Source of the DNA: Strobilurus pachycystidiatus
Taxonomy: Eukaryota; Basidiomycota; Agaricomycetes; Agaricales; Physalacriaceae
Length of the DNA stretch: 64,000 nt
NCBI GenBank assembly: GCA_019915135.1
Contig: JAHLMK010000012.1
Location: 558,001 to 622,000, forward strand
Direction of reading: 5' to 3'
Numbering within the stretch: position 1 is the stretch's first letter; each line of letters begins with the position of its first letter. A program made the translations under genes and the position numbers. The notes under the pieces are model-generated. The model saw only the letters and a program-made list of their open reading frames with translations. It had not been told where the DNA came from and did no database searches. Positions 5,801 to 23,135 of the stretch are shown piece after piece.

Positions 5801-7201
5801 ATTGAGGGGCTGGGAACGACTATCGATGTCGTCTTGTCGAATGGGTACCTACGGGAAGGAGACAAGATCGTTGTGTGTGGTCTGAATGGACCCATTGTCA
5901 CGCAAGTTCGTGCGCTGTTGACACCACAGCCTCTTCGGGAACTACGTATCAAGGCGAGTTGACTTTTTGACAACTCCCTACATTTTGTCTGACCTAAAGG
6001 ATATCCAGTCTGCCTATGTCCATCATAAGGAAGTCAAGGCAGCGCTCGGTGTGAAGATCACTGCTCCTGATCTCGAGAAGGCTATCGCTGGTTCGCGGCT
6101 GCTTGTCTGTGGACCCGATGACGACGAAGACGATCTCCGGGATGAGGTCATGTCCGATTTGACGTCCCTGTTGAACAACATCGACAAGTCCGGTCGTGGT
6201 GTGTGCGTGCAGGCCTCGACGCTGGGATCCCTGGAGGCGCTCTTGGACTTCTTGAAGTCCAGCAAGATTCCTGTGTCAGGCATCAATATCGGTCCTGTGC
6301 ACAAGAAGGATGTCATGCGCTCTGCGACGATGTTGGAGAAGGCGAGGGAGTTAGCGTGTATTCTATGCTTCGATGTTACTGTCGACAAGGACGCGGAACG
6401 TATGGCCGAGGAGATGGGGATTCGCTTGTTCAAAGGTGCATTTAGGTTCTTCTCCTCGCAATTCTCAACACTGATCCTGAACGCGCTTAGCCGACATCAT
6501 CTACCATCTGTTCGACAAGTTCACCGCCTACAATGCTGAGATTGTCGAGGCGAAGCGACGGGACGCCGCTCCGCAGGCGGTGTGGCCGTGTCGACTGAAG
6601 ATCATCGCTGCGTTCTGTAAACGCGACCCTATCATCCTCGGAGTTGATATCCTTGATGGTACGCTCCGCACCGGGACGCCTCTGGCGGTCGTGAAGGTCG
6701 ACGCTGTCACTGGGAAGAAAGAGATCATCGATCTTGGAAAGATGTACGTCAATCGAAATGATTATGGCATCCAACTTATCCGGATTTCTGCAGAACGTCG
6801 TTGGAGATAAATCACAAGAACCAGGAGGTATGTTTCGTGTCAACGTTCAGAATTTTGACGTGATTCATCCTCTTTCTAGATTGTCAAGAAATCCCAGGCT
6901 GGTGGAGGTGTCGCTGTGAAAATCGAGCATGCGGTGTATCAGTCCGCTAAGATGTTTGGACGACATTTCGATGAGAAGGACGAGCTCCTGAGCCATATCT
7001 CACGAACGAGTATCGATGTCCTCAAGGTAGGCTCGATTTTTTGTCTGTCTTTCCTGAGCTGACCGTCTCGCGCAGACATCTTTCAAGGCTGATGTTTCAA
7101 ATGAAGAATGGCTGCTCATCAAGGCGCTAAAACCCGTAAGATTTTCTTTCTCTATCAGTTGACTAGTCCTCATCGTTCTTCAGAAATTCAACATACAGTA
7201 G
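2829..7201 (+). CDS. FUN12: Translation initiation factor eIF5B (IF2-like GTPase)
   Basis: eIF5B is the ribosome-dependent GTPase that joins the 60S subunit to the 40S initiation complex in the cytosol. The frame starts [18 protein letters not shown] and carries the long Lys/Glu/Asp-rich amino-terminal part typical of eukaryotic eIF5B (about 2829-4900). The GTPase domain follows: G1 GHVDTGKTK near 4952, G3 DTPGHESF near 5200 and G4 NKID split by an intron near 5420-5480. Domains II-IV follow, with switch text such as [13 protein letters not shown]. The carboxy end is KALKPKFNIQ and the stop is at 7199-7201. About a dozen short GT-AG introns are needed (for example after 2889, 3111, 3430, 4083, 4567, 5101, 5284, 5420, 5952, 6434, 6745, 6826, 7026 and 7136). 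All domains look intact. It is a housekeeping gene with no operon-like neighbour; the next gene downstream is about 1.3 kb away. Confidence 0.95.
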
Positions 7202-15280: not shown

Positions 15281-17277
15281 CTATTTGCGATCCCGGTCCT
15301 GTACATCAGACGCCGCTAGCGCTTGCAAGACATGCTCCCTACGCAGCCACTTGTCCTCGGGGGTAAAGTACCAGCTGAGGATACCAAAGATCGTCACCGC
15401 ACCCATGATCACAGGCGCCTACATACGTCGCTTGATTAGCGAGAACGGAGGTGTGGTGAACACTAGAAGAACTTACAAAGTTGAAAGTCTCAGCAGTAAC
15501 CGGGAAGAAGTACGGCGAGGCCATAACCGCGAACAACAGCCCGTTGAAGAAGATCGCAGCGATATAGAACGGCTTCGCCAGCCTCCCCAGACGGAAGTGT
15601 GATGACTGGAAGTTGTCGGGCGTCATGAACAGGCGCAGGAGTGCGATGAGTCCATAGGCAGCGATGGTTGGGATCCCCCCGGCGGACACCAGCGAATAGA
15701 AGGCGACTTGCGACGGCAGGATCGTGCACAGGATGAGGGCACCGAAGACATAGATGACGGTGACGGCGTTCTTGGGCTGGCCGGCGGAGTCGACTTTGCC
15801 GATCCAGGAAGATAAGGGAAGGACACCGTCACGGGCTACGGCGAAGACCAGCCTGGAGGCGGCGACGACGGCGACACTGGTGTTCTGCGATGATGATGAG
15901 ATATAGAAGGGAGGGAGAAAGGAGGGACAGGAAGACTGACGAGGATCAACCCGATGACAGCGATGATTGTCATGAAGACACTAGGCCCTTTGCCCAAAGC
16001 CAGCGCGTAGAGCTGCACGAACGGCTGAGGTGCATCGAGGGCAAACAACGTGTCCAAATCCGGGGTGCAGAAGAGGAAGAGAATGGCAGTGGCGAAACCG
16101 AAAACGCTGGTCGCGACGGCGCTGGTGATAATTCCCTTCCCGGCAACCACGCTGATGAGGGTGTTAGCAAAAAAGATTCAGGGCCAAGAGGCTGGTATGA
16201 ATACCTAGCGTTCTTAGTCTCTTCCGCGATGTGACCAGAAGCATCGAACCCAGTTAATGTGCCACCGGTGAACAAGCTGCATGGAGCATGAGCATGTGGC
16301 AGAACACGACTATTGAAAAGAAACTTACAAGCAAAGAATCCAATTCCAACCAGCTGGTGCACCAGTTCCGTTATCTGAAGAAGAATAAGAATGGGCGGAT
16401 TGGAAGGGCTCTCATTGCTCTTACAAGTCATCGTGAAGACCTCGCTAGCGCTTCGGAATCCGTAAGTCCGGTGAACACCAATGGGGAGCCAGATGGCGCA
16501 GAGCAAGAAGTCGACCATCATCAACCCGGCCGAGAACTTGAACACAGCAGAGTACAATCGCGGAGGGAGGTAGTTGATGGCAATAGCAATGACGAGCATT
16601 ACTTCGGATATAGCCCAGATGAACGCGCGCCATTTCACGTTGTCGTTTGAAGCTCCGCCAGGGAAGTCGACTTCCCATACCTGCAGCTGAGAGACGATGT
16701 AGTTGGCGGTGGTCTAGGCATGGGTATGATAAGGGTGCGGACGATAGGTATAGAAAGACGAAAGCTGATGTACCTGACAGTTGCCGGCAGCGAATGTCAT
16801 CCAAGCGGTGCATGACCACCAGGCGACGACGAAGCCGAAGAAGCGAGCGTATTTTGGGCCCGCACTCTCAGCAGCCCAGATGTAGATGGATCCGCTGAGA
16901 GGGAGGGCAGAGCAGATCTCGGCCAGTACGAAGGCGGTGATCAACATGAAGAAGATCGTGATGAGGTAGGAAGACCTGGGGAGAGGTGAGGATGAAGCGT
17001 TTGGACCTGGTATCAGAAAGCACTCGCCATATCGCAGCTGGTCCACCAGCAAGCAGTCCAAGGAAGATGGCCGATCTGATGAAATTCATGAGCGCATTCT
17101 TCGCGTGAGAACAGACTCGATACTGACCGAACACCACCAATGAAGTTGAGAGCGCAGAAGCTTGCACAGAAGCTCTCGACGAGGTGCCAGGTTCTATGCA
17201 ATTGCTGCACGTTCAATCTTCAGCCAACTCCCAATTCAGAAAAGGGATTCGCCTACTTGTTTGTAACCTAGTTGTTC
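15281..17277 (-). CDS. Amino-acid-permease-type transporter, likely thiamine importer (Thi9-like)
   Basis: Integral membrane transporter of the APC superfamily (GABA/choline permease group). On the minus strand the exons give EQLGYKQ, QLHRTWHLVESFCASFCAL, a transmembrane run with FFMLITAFVLAEICSALPLSG then SIYIWAAESAGPKYARFFG, more helices including LISVVAGKGIITSAVATSVF, and a carboxy end in SDVQDRDRK. The stop is at 15281-15283. About eight short introns are needed. The first coding exon I can place is 17257-17277, just after a TTAG acceptor. No ATG in frame is visible after that acceptor, so the true start must lie in an upstream exon I could not resolve. A TPP riboswitch sits just upstream (17348-17462), so I infer thiamine or a precursor as the substrate; S. 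pombe Thi9 is a thiamine transporter of this superfamily. A broken 3' copy lies at 22480-23135. Confidence 0.85.
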
Positions 17278-17347
17278 CTAACATAACAATCAGTACTTCC
17301 ATTCCTAGCTCCCGTAGGAGCGTAAAAAAGTGGTGAAAACACTGGGG

Positions 17348-17462
17348 GGCTTCCCTACGCAGGTCTGAGCGCTGATCAGGTTCAAGCGGTATATCTCAAC
17401 CCCCAACGGTACATCTCGTCCAACGAGGGACTCGATAGCACACGTTGGGGATACCCGCAGCC
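17348..17462 (-). ncRNA. TPP (thiamine pyrophosphate) riboswitch aptamer
   Basis: Read on the minus strand the conserved TPP-aptamer blocks occur in order: TTGAGATATACC, then TTGAACCTGATC, then CTGCGTAGGGAAGCC. Pairing supports the fold. P1 is GGCT at 17459-17462 with AGCC at 17348-17351. P2 is GCGG.TAT with ATA.CCGC. P3 is CCCCAACG with CGTTGGGG, extended by a long hairpin around TCGAGTCCCTCGTTGGACGA. A short P5 CAG/CTG follows. Fungal TPP riboswitches lie in 5' leader introns and act by changing splicing. Here the aptamer precedes the transporter's first recognisable exon by about 70 nt, and a possible donor (G|GTATCC) lies inside the P2/P3 strand. This element is strong evidence for thiamine control of the transporter. 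Confidence 0.92.
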
Positions 17463-18061
17463 ATTTCCAGTTTAACCACTAGGAATGAACGTTACCGAAT
17501 CGCAGCAGCAGTCAGACGCATTGCAGGGCAGCAGTCGTCCCGCTGGTTTTTTCCCGTTTGTTTACCAATTGGAGTTCGTCCGAGTCCTGGAACCGGGGCG
17601 GCTCTTCGGTTGTCGAGTCCTTGCTTTGAGAGTGCACGGACATTTCTGCTGGGGAAAGGTAGTGGTGGTGGGAAGGATGATAGGGCTACCAAAGGTCCGG
17701 GTTTTTAAGCTCGGGCACTAGTGTGCTGCCACTGCCAGTGATGGTGGTGGTCCGGGTCGGAGCTGGGTGAGAATGCGAAAAAAGAGCATCGGCCCGATCA
17801 GGCACAATCAATCCAATCAATGAATGGGAGCCTCAGGGGAGCCTGAATGGGCCGAGTCTCGACTGTCTGTCCTTTCTATAAGTAGTCTCATTCCCGACGC
17901 GTGCTCACTTTTGGACCCAAATAGTGCAGAGATGTTACCAAGTTCGCCAGTGATCTCTGTGCTAGTCGTCCGTTTTTCTCACGTAGACCGGACCGACGAG
18001 CAAGACAGGGTGGGGAGAGGTCCAGAACGGAACGGATGGGAACGAGACGGGCATTATATTA
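17463..18061. other. Leader/promoter region of the transporter
   Basis: The minus-strand 5' leader and promoter of the riboswitch-controlled transporter should lie here. A short upstream reading frame (MRLTAAAIR, near 17495-17520) ends at a GTAACG that could serve as a splice donor. No other gene is visible. Confidence 0.4.
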
Positions 18062-18548
18062 GGGGAGCTCAGAGTTGGGTCGGTCGGTTGGTCGGATGGT
18101 CGGTCGACCCGCTGACAAAGGTCACCTCGCCCAATTTGGATGTCACCTTCTGCCAGGACCTGCCTGTCCGATAAAGCCCGAGCTCGGGCGTACTAGCACA
18201 ACACCGGTATGCGTGCAGCAATATCTTGACCACAGCAATAGTGGCATTTTGCTTTGGTTTTTTGAGTTGTATGGAGAGCTGCAGCAACAATCAATCAGAA
18301 CCTAGAATGATCAAGCTACTTATTGTGGCGCATTGACTAGAAATCTCAGGGCATCCAGTACTGCTCGAAACCTCCGAAATACTTTGTGTTTAACGTTTGC
18401 AGCCTGCAGTGCATTTAAATAAGTGTATACGCGTTAGATATCTCTTTTGCGGGAGAGACTAGAGGTTCGTGACCATCTGTGACCGGTATTCGGTCCGTCA
18501 GCCCGACCGACCATCCGACCAACCGACCGACCCAACTCTGAGCTCCCC
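18062..18548. mobile_element. Second MITE-like element, about 50-bp terminal inverted repeats
   Basis: The left end GGGGAGCTCAGAGTTGGGT and the following GGTCGG-rich stretch (18062 to about 18110) are repeated in near-perfect inverted form at about 18500-18548. TA dinucleotides border both ends (18060-18061 and 18549-18550). The interior of about 390 bp has no meaningful frame. The GGGG terminus and TA duplication are shared with the element at 7389-7686, but the rest of the repeats differ, so the two may belong to different families of one superfamily. Confidence 0.85.
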
Positions 18549-19088
18549 TATTGTCTCCTGCTCTCGGTATGGTCTCTAGCGCACCATTTTCCCCGATGAA
18601 CGGTTGAGCGCGAAATAGTTTGATTGGTATGTGCAATCATTGCGCTATGCATTACTGCCACTACCGGTGACTATAATAATAAAATATGTAGGGCCGTAGT
18701 GAGTGAAATCAATTGCTCTGGATCGTAATCAGTCCGACTTCGTCTTGACTCTTCTCAAACGTCCGCTCTTTGTCGAGCAGCAATTTTCCATGGTTCCGGT
18801 TCTCTGGTCTACGGTACACTTACCCTCACTGGCTTGTCTAATAGGTCGCTTCGGCTTTATTAACACGCTTTCCTACGATGGTTCAATTGAGCCTTCGCTA
18901 ACCCAACCTTTTGACCTAAAGATCCACATTTATGGAGCCTCAATCCTGAGTTCAACTTCTGTGGCTCGGCCGCCCGATCCACAGATCGTCGATCATGGGT
19001 TTTGTGGCTCTTCCAGTAATATGCCTATAACAATAACGACGCGCCACTATTTCCTCTCCCCACCTGTCCGTCATCAAGTGCAATTACA

Positions 19089-19143: not shown

Positions 19144-20667
19144 ATGTCAACCCCCGAGCCAACCAAGCCAGCCCGCATGCATCCCGTCCTCGAGTTCCTG
19201 GAAATGGAGAAGAAGACAAACCACGGCTGGGACGGATACACCGTTGTCCAAAGCACGAAACTCGCCGAGACTCTCAACGAAGTCCTATCCGTCCCTTATA
19301 CCTCATTCCCCGTCTCCACCTACTATGAGACTGGCACTAAACATGGAGAATTTGGCCCGACTGGGGATCCTACCGCCTTCGGAACGGTCAGAGCCCCCAA
19401 CGTCGACAAACTCCTCGAGGCCGCCACCAAAACCCCTTCCATGTTCGGCAGGGGTCCCGAGACAGTCATGGATTTGGACTATCGTCGCGGCTATGAAATT
19501 GTGGCGAAGGACATTGCCGAACCTTCCCACATTCTCCGAGAGCAACCGCTCCAGGAAAACCTTAATGACACTCTGTTCATTGGCAAGCGTTGCCGCCTCC
19601 AGCTGTACAAAGTCGCAGTATACAAAGCCGGCGGTCACTTCGATTGGCATCGCGACACCACGCACGGCCGTAATCACCACGGTACCCTCCTCGTCGCCCT
19701 GAACACTGCCTGGACGGGCGGTGACCTCATTCTTCGCCATCGTGGCGTCGAAAAGAGCTTTAATATGCGACCTCGCAAAGAGGGTGATCGGGAAGGCGAC
19801 ACAGCTGCGAGCACGAAGGACTCGGAGGAGGAGGAGAAGGATACGACCGTTGACCCCACTGCCGAGCTTCAGGCGGTGGCCTTCTATACCGACGTCGAGC
19901 ATAAGGTCGAGCCCGTCGAAACAGGCGTTCGTATCGTCCTCCAGTACGACATCCTTCTGGATGATCCCATCCGACCAAAGAGTGACAATGACCGGCTTGC
20001 CAACCTCGATGGCGCTAAGAACCACGAACAAGGCGAAGATGCCTATATACACGCTAAGGGTGCCTACAAGCACCTAAACAGCAAGAAGACAGAAGTCTTC
20101 CGCCCGACCGGCGCAGGCGCGGAGAACGACAAGAGCTTGGACAAACTCGTCGCCCTCTTCGAGGCCAAGTTTGACGAGTTTGAGGATGGTGATGGTGAGG
20201 TTGGGTTTGCCCTTCACCACCTCTATCGGCAGGAGAGTATCCTGCCCCAGTACCTCAAAGGTACTGATGCCTTGATCTATGAAAGGCTCAAGGACCACTT
20301 CGAGGTCATCCTGTACCCTGTCATCTTGACGGCAGATACCGATGGAGAAGGTTGCAACTCAGATATGTATGCCTACAAATGTCTCGACGCCCAAGGTCGG
20401 AAGGACGACGAAGAAGCTCGGAAGGCCGCCCAAGAAGCTTGGAAGGCCGCCCAAGAAGGTCGGAAGGACGCTCAAAGCCGGAAACGGGGACGTCCTATGA
20501 ATAAGACGTTCCATCTATACGACGCCCATAACGTCGTGCAGATCAATAGTCAGGAATACATTGAGTATACCGGCAACGAGGCGCAGGCTGGAAACTGCAA
20601 GTATTTTGGTGGGGGGATGTTTGTGAGCCCGCGGCAGAAGCGAGCGAAGACCTCGACAGCTGACTAG
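19144..20667 (+). CDS. Fe(II)/2-oxoglutarate oxygenase, copy B
   Basis: Single-exon paralogue of the gene at 10704-12380, opening MSTPEPTKPARMHPVLEF. The metal ligands are HFD (His165, Asp167) and His253, with Arg263 for 2OG (EHKVEP...GVRIVLQY). The core around HFDWHRDTTHGRNHHGTLL is unchanged from copy A. The long acidic insert of copy A is absent; only a short acidic stretch (SEEEEKD) remains. Copy B instead has a small repeat near the carboxy end, built on an RKAAQEAWKAAQEG-type unit (20395-20475). The reading frame is intact and the promoter and leader intron resemble copy A. It probably hydroxylates or otherwise oxidises the same type of unknown substrate. The next gene is a converging acyl-CoA-oxidase-like gene, but 2.6 kb away instead of 0.3 kb. 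Confidence 0.9.
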   Translation: MSTPEPTKPARMHPVLEFLEMEKKTNHGWDGYTVVQSTKLAETLNEVLSVPYTSFPVSTYYETGTKHGEFGPTGDPTAFGTVRAPNVDKLLEAATKTPSMFGRGPETVMDLDYRRGYEIVAKDIAEPSHILREQPLQENLNDTLFIGKRCRLQLYKVAVYKAGGHFDWHRDTTHGRNHHGTLLVALNTAWTGGDLILRHRGVEKSFNMRPRKEGDREGDTAASTKDSEEEEKDTTVDPTAELQAVAFYTDVEHKVEPVETGVRIVLQYDILLDDPIRPKSDNDRLANLDGAKNHEQGEDAYIHAKGAYKHLNSKKTEVFRPTGAGAENDKSLDKLVALFEAKFDEFEDGDGEVGFALHHLYRQESILPQYLKGTDALIYERLKDHFEVILYPVILTADTDGEGCNSDMYAYKCLDAQGRKDDEEARKAAQEAWKAAQEGRKDAQSRKRGRPMNKTFHLYDAHNVVQINSQEYIEYTGNEAQAGNCKYFGGGMFVSPRQKRAKTSTAD

Positions 20668-22479
20668 TAAATTGTTTCATGATATGATTCAAGTTGTAAT
20701 CTATTGAGCAGACTGAGTTGTGCTCTCGTAGTATTCCCTGTACGAAGTTTCAAGTAGGGGGAAAAGAGCCGCAACTTACTCCTCAAGAGCGTACACATTC
20801 TCGAATGGCCGCTTTCCGCCAGGAAGACGCGTTGAATTGCCCTTATCACGACTCACGAGGCTGTTCATCGTTCTCTTGCCGAATGCAGATGATACCTCTC
20901 AATTCTGGCATGCAGCAGAGATAGGAATCAGGATGTAGGTAACATTCAAAATGGCTGTATGGCCCTCTCTGGTAAGAAAGGACGACTACACAACCGACAG
21001 AAGGAAGGAACCACGCTGCTCTCTCTGAAGGTGAGATTTGAGCTCCGACGACGCCACATCATCGGCAAGATTCGGCTGTCCCAAAGAAGACATACGCAAG
21101 CGCAGGGCGGCCGGCGCGCCTTTGCTCTTTCCATTCATGACCTCGGACTCATTGGCGCCTATCTCACGTTACGCTCGACTTTCAGGCTCAACTTCGAGGT
21201 TTCTCTTCATTTTTCAACTTTCTTCCATACCCTGGACGACTTGGATGTCCCTGCTCGGACACGAACTATCTACCAGTCGACAGCGACGACAACAACGAAA
21301 ACAATGTGCAGACAGTTTGGTAGAAAGATATTGATTCGCTAGCGTGTAGGACTCGAAGGATGGTACATCAATTGCATGATAGTGGCTGCTGGTACCATCG
21401 TGAACAGGTCATCGCCTGCTCTCGTCCCCAATACGCGTCACTAATTGCACACCAGTCTCTACGCACGGCCTCACGACACATCCCACCTCTGGCGCTGATG
21501 TTTGACAAGACTTACGTTATAGTTCGGCCTTACTTCTGGGACGGTGCACTCGTATGCGTCTGGCGGACGGTGTTCGTGCACAGTGCTTAAAGAATTGTCT
21601 TCGTTGTCTCGCTGGGCAGAAAAAAGTCTCGCATCTTCTACTCTATAATACTGACTTGCTAGCTCTCCAAATAAAGTTTGACATTTAGTCGCATCTGCCT
21701 TCCTCCGATTCATCGACCTCCATCAGTTCAAGAGTGTCCTGCATTCTGTATTCTTCTGACACCGGCGTTGCACCCAAGAGACGAACATTGCGGTTCCGCA
21801 CCATCGCATCGGTGCCTTGCCTGACATCGTACGTGGTCATTCGCGTGGTCAATATCCATCAAAGTTTGAATGATATGCCTTGAGAAGCTTCGCGAGCTGC
21901 GTCTACGGTGAGTGTACCCCGTAGAGATATGTACGCAATCTAATGGTTTGGTAACAGATCCTTCCCCATCTGCTTTGCATCTGCTCGGTGGTTCCACACC
22001 CTGACTACGCTTGTCCATCATGTTCCCGACCCAGAGTTGAAAGCTGGGCTCTCGGAATATGAGCTCTGAGACAGTGTTTTCTGCTTCGGAATGAACGCCT
22101 ATAGGGACTCCTGTTTTCTTGCAAGGAATGGGGATCCCTTCTGAGGCTCAGCAGGAGAGTCCGGCACCATGTCACTTGAAGCCTTGGTGAATGATGGAGT
22201 GTGTGGATTCTCGAAGATCTTTTCGTCGGGGTGTACATGTTCCCGTTGACACCCATCCAGCAATCTGTCGTGACATGGAAACAAGGTCGCAATCTCCGAA
22301 GGTTTATGAGCGGTGTAACGCTGCGCAGCAAACTGCATGTCCAAACCGGACTGACGATCCACTGATTGTTAGACAGTGCCGTATGGGACAACGGACACCA
22401 CCTTCGGTCATCTTTATGCCATGGAAGTATCATAATTTAGTGGGTCTGGACGCATTGTCCTCAGTCGTTCGTGCAGCTC
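20668..22479. other. Insert between the converging genes of the right arm; no clear gene
   Basis: The first 60 bp or so resemble the sequence just downstream of oxygenase copy A; similarity then stops. Short open frames occur (for example on the minus strand at 22099-22362 and 21728-22021), but none could be assigned to a family or joined into a convincing gene. Together with the transporter fragment that follows, this segment separates two genes that are adjacent in the left arm. Confidence 0.4.
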
Positions 22480-23135
22480 TACACATTGGCTTTGGGTAAA
22501 GAACCGAGGGTCTTCATTATAACCATCACCGCTGTCACCGGGCTGATTCTCGTCAGTCTTCTTGCTCCCCTACCTCCCATCCATATCTTTGATCTCATAA
22601 TTCTATTGCTGTCGCCGCCCTCACCGCCTCCCCTGCTAGGCTCAGGCTAGCTAGCCTTTCCTCATCACACTGGATCGGCCAAGTCATATCTTCGCTGCCT
22701 TCATCCTGTGCACGAACTTGCTAGATCCGCCGTCGCGAGTCGCATTCACGGCGGTGGTATCGGCCAGGGAGAAACCGATCATCGCGCTCCTGCGTCTGGT
22801 CATGGCGATCAGCAACTTTCAGTCATCGCACTTCCGCCAGGGGAGGCTGGCGAAGCCGATTTATGTTGCTGAAATAGACCTACAACGAGTTGTTGTTCGC
22901 AGTTATGGGGTTGCCGTACTTTTTTCTCCGTGCTGAGAGAACTTCTTAATTTTTCATTGCTCGCCATACGTTCGTTTTCGCTAATGAGCGACGCCTGTAG
23001 GCGCCTCTGATCATAGGTGCGGTGACGATCTTTGTGATTTTTAGCTGGTACTGCACCCCAGAGGTCAAGGGCTGCGCAGGGAGCTCTTCCAAGCGCTGGC
23101 GAGCGGCGTCTGATGTAAATGGGATCACAAGTGGG
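22480..23135 (+). pseudogene. 3' fragment of the amino-acid-permease-type transporter
   Basis: The segment matches about the last third of the gene at 15281-17277. It begins near GGTAAAGAACCGAGGGTCTT (counterpart of GKGPSVFMTIIAVIG) and continues through ALLRLVMAISNFQSSHFRQG. It ends near 23135 at sequence corresponding to AASDVQ, with the true terminus lost. The frame is broken several times, a middle part near 22560-22720 is scrambled, and the amino-terminal two thirds and the riboswitch are missing. The orientation is inverted relative to the intact gene. Confidence 0.8.

Follow-up and report, generated by a model that had tools for sequence, protein, structure and literature searches.

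A candidate Type III TPP riboswitch in the first intron of an APC-family permease gene of Strobilurus pachycystidiatus

Judged from its sequence, the first intron of an APC-family permease gene of Strobilurus pachycystidiatus contains a TPP aptamer. We read it as a TPP riboswitch of the amino-acid-transporter group, probably THI9-like and of Type III, with which high TPP would lead to loss of splicing at the first donor (S1) and low TPP to the full permease (probability roughly 0.8). The class, architecture and logic of such a riboswitch are already published; the element is of a known kind in a widespread arrangement. All positions are those of the window, i.e. the whole stretch of 64,000 nucleotides that was analysed. 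The features of the gene, all on the minus strand, are as follows:

17566..17643 (-): permease exon 1, coding for MSVHSQSKDSTTEEPPRFQDSDELQL, 26 residues (spliced model and homologue N-termini)
17278..17565 (-): intron 1, 288 nt, GTAAAC...GTTAG, with the aptamer inside (junction placed from frame and homologues)
17565 (-): S1 donor, U1 duplex -5.3 kcal/mol, joining the TTAG acceptor that ends at 17278
17512..17514 (-): in-frame TGA; by the reading frame, retention or splicing from a downstream donor would give a 43-residue product
17490..17497 (-): candidate donor S2, CG/GTAACG, GT at 17495-17494, between the stop and the aptamer, U1 duplex -5.5 kcal/mol
17449..17456 (-): donor-like GG/GTATCC, GT at 17454-17453, within P2/P3, U1 duplex -6.5 kcal/mol
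17400 and 17358 (-): further GT sites of intron 1, U1 pairing -5.5 and -4.8 kcal/mol, respectively
17335..17467 (-): TPP riboswitch aptamer (RF00059), full model in cmscan; P1 is 17462-17459 with 17351-17348; P3 is extended, with 41 bases absent from the alignment
17257..17277 (-): microexon, 21 nt, EQLGYKQ (splice sites; homologues DELQL-x-LGYKQ)
17205..17256 (-): intron 2, 52 nt, GTAGGC...GTGCAG (splice signals)
17204-17128, 17075-17028, 16975-16774, 16713-16425, 16374-16329 (-): permease exons 3 onward, first five of nine (spliced model)
16276-16205, 16151-15941, 15884-15477, 15418-15281 (-): remaining permease exons, to the gene end at 15281 (spliced model)

The initial annotation had recognised the conserved aptamer blocks and the P1, P2 and P3 pairings on the minus strand and had named a search with the Rfam TPP model as their test. 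RF00059 aligned untruncated (model 1-105) to window 17467-17335 (-) with 43.3 bits (E 8.2e-7) in a relaxed-threshold scan of a 1.4 kb stretch, and in a profile search of the 51.8 Mb genome the same aptamer reached 48.7 bits (E 3.3e-7) and was the sole match at E<=0.001. Both scores are below the Rfam gathering cut-off of 54.3 bits, and a scan of the entire window at the gathering score therefore listed nothing for RF00059. The lower score plausibly results from the extended P3, into which 41 bases are inserted, and we treat the cut-off as a threshold for detection and not as a structural feature. P3 size is described to influence the detection of TPP riboswitches by generic models, fungal-specific models performing better (PMC11683625). 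The three runner-up matches in the genome at E<=10 (24.6, 24.0 and 23.6 bits; E 0.28-0.49) were not accepted as TPP aptamers. As 49 of 1987 first-look candidates were scored in the genome-wide search, divergent aptamers elsewhere in the genome could be missed.

The named blocks (UGAGAU, UGAACCUGAUC and GCGUAGGGAA) were present. The alignment shows 23 consensus pairs, of which 22 were standard, the outermost P1 pair being the sole exception; the blocks and pairings first seen by eye are thus confirmed. In the window copy the pyrimidine and pyrophosphate sensor motifs, UGAGAU and GCGUAGGGAA, are canonical, and so is the CUGAU motif. L5 reads UCAG in the RF00059 alignment and does not match the consensus UAAU, a motif described as conserved (PMC5882874). 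The folding energy of 17468-17335 was 2.77 standard deviations below that of dinucleotide shuffles (2 of 200 were as good), and a large part of the predicted fold consists of the long P3 hairpin. The pattern CTGATC-N5..35-GCGTAGGGAA occurred twice in the genome, in the aptamer and on another contig, there within a region that contains a short GCGTA repeat. By its sequence and modelled structure we regard the TPP aptamer as real, and it would be expected to bind TPP.

The host gene is, by its predicted protein, an APC-family permease. Its exons were joined by eye using splice signals and reading frame, and the resulting model of 529 aa including the microexon has an intact frame; a 522-residue draft was used for the homologue search and the Pfam scan, the 529-residue model for the paralogue and NCBIfam searches. 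The 522-aa model without microexon matched PF13520 (AA_permease_2, E 1.1e-46) and PF00324 (AA_permease, E 3.5e-28) in Pfam. The best NCBIfam match was the amino acid permease TIGR00907 with 217.9 bits, below the cut-off of 598.3, and none of the solved structures matched the permease profile at 1e-3. Except for the first, the introns measure 50-60 nt each, and one of them, at 16976-17027 (-), is of the GC-AG type. The draft joined exon 1 directly and in frame to exon 3 over a first intron of 361 nt; it was rejected, as compared with homologue N-termini it lacked the microexon. This was added because homologues read e.g. DELQL-QKLGYKQ-QLHRSW and the draft intron holds GAACAACTAGGTTACAAACAA (EQLGYKQ) between TTAG and GTAGGC.

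Homologues of the permease numbered 812, of which the 120 listed were checked for junction patterns and for translated aptamer; the named species among these 120 are presumably Agaricomycetes. The pattern DELQL-x-LGYKQ-QLHR.W, spanning the junction between exon 1 and microexon, recurs among homologues: the end of exon 1 together with the microexon was found in 41 of the 120, the exon 1-exon 3 pattern without microexon in six, and the remainder fitted neither, many being N-terminally shorter. The six models without microexon could be annotation errors or reflect real skipping. The EQLGYKQ site lies shortly N-terminal to the permease domain, and there is a very slim chance that TPP might govern inclusion of the microexon, besides or instead of message loss, with two isoforms differing by EQLGYKQ. 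As deduced from the sequence, the aptamer is located in the intron between coding exon 1 and the microexon, which are in phase with each other. It had initially been placed just upstream of the permease exons, in a 5' leader intron. The host, an intron of an APC-type permease, stood, but the element lies between exons 1 and 2 and not before all coding exons: exon 1 (17643-17566) is coding, and its junction pattern recurs in homologues. The TTAG acceptor proposed at the outset agrees, with its end at 17278, with the gene model.

Reading exon 1 through into intron 1 yields MSVHSQSKDSTTEEPPRFQDSDELQLVNKREKTSGTTAALQCV, then TGA. Splicing from S1 would give the full-length permease, whereas with a later donor or retention the stop would be kept. 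A short upstream peptide of about 13 codons had been expected from splicing within the aptamer; mis-splicing or retention would instead produce a truncated permease start that ends at TGA 17514-17512. The GT sites of intron 1 were listed if their U1 pairing was < -3.5 kcal/mol; the other donors of the gene ranged from -1.6 to -7.1 kcal/mol. For Type III, Mukherjee et al. describe an internal intron of 200-400 nt in which a stop follows S1 and comes before both S2 and the aptamer, and in which the acceptor lies beyond the aptamer (PMC5882874). The permease intron is likewise internal, with 288 nt, and has the aptamer within and the acceptor after the aptamer and before the next exon, and the TGA stands between the donor-like site at 17565 and the candidate at 17495, upstream of the aptamer.

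When TPP is scarce, the intron would be removed from S1 at 17565 to the TTAG acceptor at 17278, and the full-length permease, which may import thiamine or a thiamine precursor, would be made. With TPP in ample supply, the folded aptamer would disfavour S1, and a downstream donor, most likely 17495, would be used or the intron retained. With S1 lost, TGA 17514 would be kept in the message, resulting in a dead 43-residue product and probably in nonsense-mediated decay. The splicing switch and the choice of the downstream donor are proposed by analogy, and it is precedent that leads us to prefer a loss of splicing at S1 when TPP is high, by way of 17495 or of retention.

The initial annotation placed known fungal TPP riboswitches mainly in thiamine biosynthesis genes. 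A transporter host is not unexpected: according to PMC5882874, amino-acid transporters regulated by TPP riboswitches (TPPsw-AA) occur widely in Basidiomycota but not in Ascomycota, and among medically relevant fungi this class is reported as the most prevalent one in Basidiomycota (PMC11683625). The permease riboswitch shares with TPPsw-AA of both papers the basidiomycete setting and the amino-acid-permease domain, PMC11683625 mentions a protein with the annotation amino butyric acid transporter, and nothing essential was seen to differ. A microexon adjoining the riboswitch intron goes unmentioned in the excerpts of the TPPsw-AA accounts that we used (PMC5882874, PMC11683625). The analogy to S. 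pombe Thi9 that was drawn initially is fair: Thi9 is amino-acid-transporter-like, and its basidiomycete relatives are reported with a TPP riboswitch, a link resting on PMC5997356, which states, citing Moldovan et al. 2018, that Thi9 orthologues of basidiomycetes and some ascomycetes bear riboswitches. PMC8786325 cautions that the thi9 riboswitch is without experimental validation. We infer that the TPPsw-AA and THI9 groups are the same, and the papers disagree on ascomycetes.

In DUR31 of Candida and NCU01977 of Neurospora the aptamer also resides in a coding-region intron, and an in-frame stop is reached if this intron is retained or mis-spliced; for Candida DUR31 a thiamin-dependent coding-region intron was shown by experiment (PMC5997356). 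Unlike the permease, these transporters belong to the sodium-solute symporter family (SLC5), and the 602-bp intron of NCU01977 uses long-range pairing (PMC5997356). The N. crassa NMT1 and THI4 riboswitches likewise combine an aptamer with alternative 5' splice sites, but they are found in 5' UTR introns with uORFs of biosynthesis genes, whereas the permease intron lies between coding exons.

Partition-function folding of the stretch 17643-17180 was compared between the free state and the state with enforced aptamer. Enforcing the bound fold cost 6.1 kcal/mol, which could be paid by ligand binding. The predicted unpaired probability was 0.60 free and 0.61 bound at S1 and 0.29 and 0.28 at 17495, and so masking of either donor is not predicted. 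The potential donor G/GTATCC at 17454, singled out in the initial annotation, does lie inside the P2/P3 strand, but it was buried in both states (0.08 free, 0.02 bound), which makes it a poor candidate for a site exposed by TPP. Upon enforcing the aptamer, 17400 opened from 0.10 to 0.44 and the unpaired probability of 17358 fell from 0.39 to 0.33. Among ten comparisons with single-base shuffles, the complementarity of P4/P5 to 17533-17485 was equalled by 9 of 300 shuffles, and the S1 stretch 17577-17552 paired with the P3-side 17428-17397, with 6 of 300 and 8 of 300 shuffles as good in two overlapping comparisons. For the 31-nt segment around 17495 alone against P4/P5, 285 of 300 shuffles were as good, and long free-duplex energies mean little on their own. 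Altogether, folding gave no support for a switch between donors.

This result is in line with a variant of the preferred reading that we consider possible, at clearly less than even odds, namely that the TPP-bound aptamer blocks splicing of the whole intron and no alternative donor is used. The retained intron 1 would itself carry the stop, and Candida DUR31 introns that have a single obvious donor may likewise be retained (PMC5997356); against retention stands the similar U1 pairing at the other donor-like sites 17495, 17454 and 17400.

Mis-modelled proteins can carry translated introns, and a three-frame translation of 17470-17279 was compared with the 120 homologues. Translated aptamer was found before the permease domain in six of these gene models (E 2.7e-10 to 5.7e-5), in one frame in P0022 (Cyclocybe aegerita), P0115 (Termitomyces sp. 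Mn162) and P0032 (Gymnopilus dilepis) and in another in P0036 (metagenome cluster), P0052 (Mycena olivaceomarginata) and P0044 (Lentinula raphanica). Reversed queries produced zero matches at E<=0.1 among the same 120; a match in P0013 (E 0.014) concerns the body of the permease and not the aptamer. Several agaric genera thus have the aptamer ahead of this permease. In four of the six (P0022, P0032, P0036 and P0115) a residue E or N implies a final CUGAU base other than U, so this motif is not fixed across the group.

Decayed-looking partial copies of the permease are present on the same contig, at window 22456-23120 (+) and at about 528984-529427 (L035) and 536294-536890 (L036) of G000:C12. 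L036 has kept exon 1, its translation being 80.8% identical to that of the permease; judged by eye, it also retains the beginning of the riboswitch intron, after which a late exon follows, and it is without an RF00059 match. A long hairpin with well-paired arms at L036 192-546 (-) reached 41 bits with the MIR7533 model (cut-off 230 bits) and is probably a foldback element. Upstream of the permease itself, a perfect 47-nt inverted repeat (window 18060-18106 and 18504-18550, 397 nt apart) has a foldback, MITE-like look, and a 507-aa open frame at window 19144-20667 (+), by eye 2-oxoglutarate/Fe(II) oxygenase-like, lies between the permease and the decayed copy at 22456-23120. Related loci were also sought among viral contigs and genome contigs, and no relative was found.

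With respect to thiamine metabolism, the genome gave Pfam matches to THI4 (PF01946), TMP-TENI (PF02581) and Phos_pyr_kin (PF08543, HMP or pyridoxal kinase family), and a genome profile search for NMT1/THI5 (PF09084) gave none. CCCFC is the THI5 motif; a pattern coding for it had 21 genome matches (38 for the reversed pattern), and none of the 20 that were read by eye was enzyme-like. SSF had one match in the genome, with 29.4 bits. No RF00059 match at E<=5 was obtained in the 6 kb that hold the main THI4 match, nor in any of the five stretches scanned around THI4 and the paralogue copies; among these stretches, C5 (L037) carries a more distant permease relative. The THI4, TMP-TENI and Phos_pyr_kin matches without one to NMT1/THI5 are consistent with uptake of thiamine or a precursor by the permease.

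We consider it unlikely that the permease is an importer of GABA or of some ordinary amino acid and that its control by TPP is incidental. Many homologues carry the name gamma-aminobutyric acid transporter, and the nearest NCBIfam family, below its cut-off, is TIGR00907. The homologue names are, however, automatic, and TPP-controlled transporters elsewhere carry thiamin, as shown for DUR31 and cited for Thi9 (PMC5997356).

Type II-like control as in N. crassa NCU01977, where an aptamer strand would pair near S1 at low TPP and promote its use, appears improbable. The pairing of 17577-17552 with 17428-17397 beats most single-base shuffles, as Type II would have it, but enforcing the aptamer did not alter the predicted accessibility of S1, and 288 nt is short against the 650-900 nt given for such introns (PMC5882874). 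Moreover, the alpha element RGCGGYRRY has no full match in the intron, with GCGG cores at 17543 and 17458 only (PMC5882874 allows variation), and in the excerpts of the same paper the mechanism is reported for urea-type transporters only. Still less probable is a decaying aptamer relic that has lost TPP binding: the score below gathering, the deviating L5, the CUGAU drift in four of the six translated aptamers and the loss of function raised as possible for thi9 riboswitches, experiments lacking (PMC8786325), would fit, but the window copy has 22 of 23 visible pairs intact and canonical sensor blocks, several genera of agarics retain the aptamer ahead of the same permease and the reading frame of the permease is intact.

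The permease riboswitch also bears on two exceptional TPP riboswitches assigned to eIF5B, one in an intron in Gloeophyllum trabeum and one in the 3' UTR in Postia placenta (PMC5882874). In the window, C-terminal pieces of eIF5B are located at 6009-7135 (+), about 8 kb off the permease end and facing the permease. Among the 120 listed homologues, four (P0009, P0033, P0073 and P0101) are named eIF5B by a source, and for P0009 and P0033 Pfam shows permease domains only. In P0089 from Agrocybe chaxingu the first 144 residues match solved eIF5B structures (E 3.5e-34, chain named eIF5B) and the permease follows, the permease part alone being named in the Pfam scan. The pieces near the permease, the P0089 fusion and the four eIF5B-named homologues suggest that the Gloeophyllum and Postia riboswitches belong to the permease: eIF5B and permease are likely neighbours in several agaricomycetes, and the published eIF5B riboswitch is likely that of the permease. 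A literature search joining 'TPP riboswitch' with 'initiation factor 5B' found no paper besides PMC5882874. Misassignment of the permease's riboswitch to eIF5B is a simple explanation for the published oddity, which we put forward as a proposal.

The permease riboswitch is a clear example of a class reported to be widespread in Basidiomycota. It also illustrates how riboswitch genes get mis-annotated, with a coding exon 1 and a microexon around the intron and with some gene models translating the aptamer. If the absence of NMT1/THI5 is real, the fungus, possibly a pyrimidine or thiamine auxotroph, would need to import thiamine or the pyrimidine moiety of thiamine, and a TPP-controlled importer would fit. 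As the aptamer is the only confident one found in the genome and NMT1/THI5 had no match, control of the vitamin B1 supply may rest on uptake, which is probably turned down by the riboswitch once vitamin B1 is sufficient.
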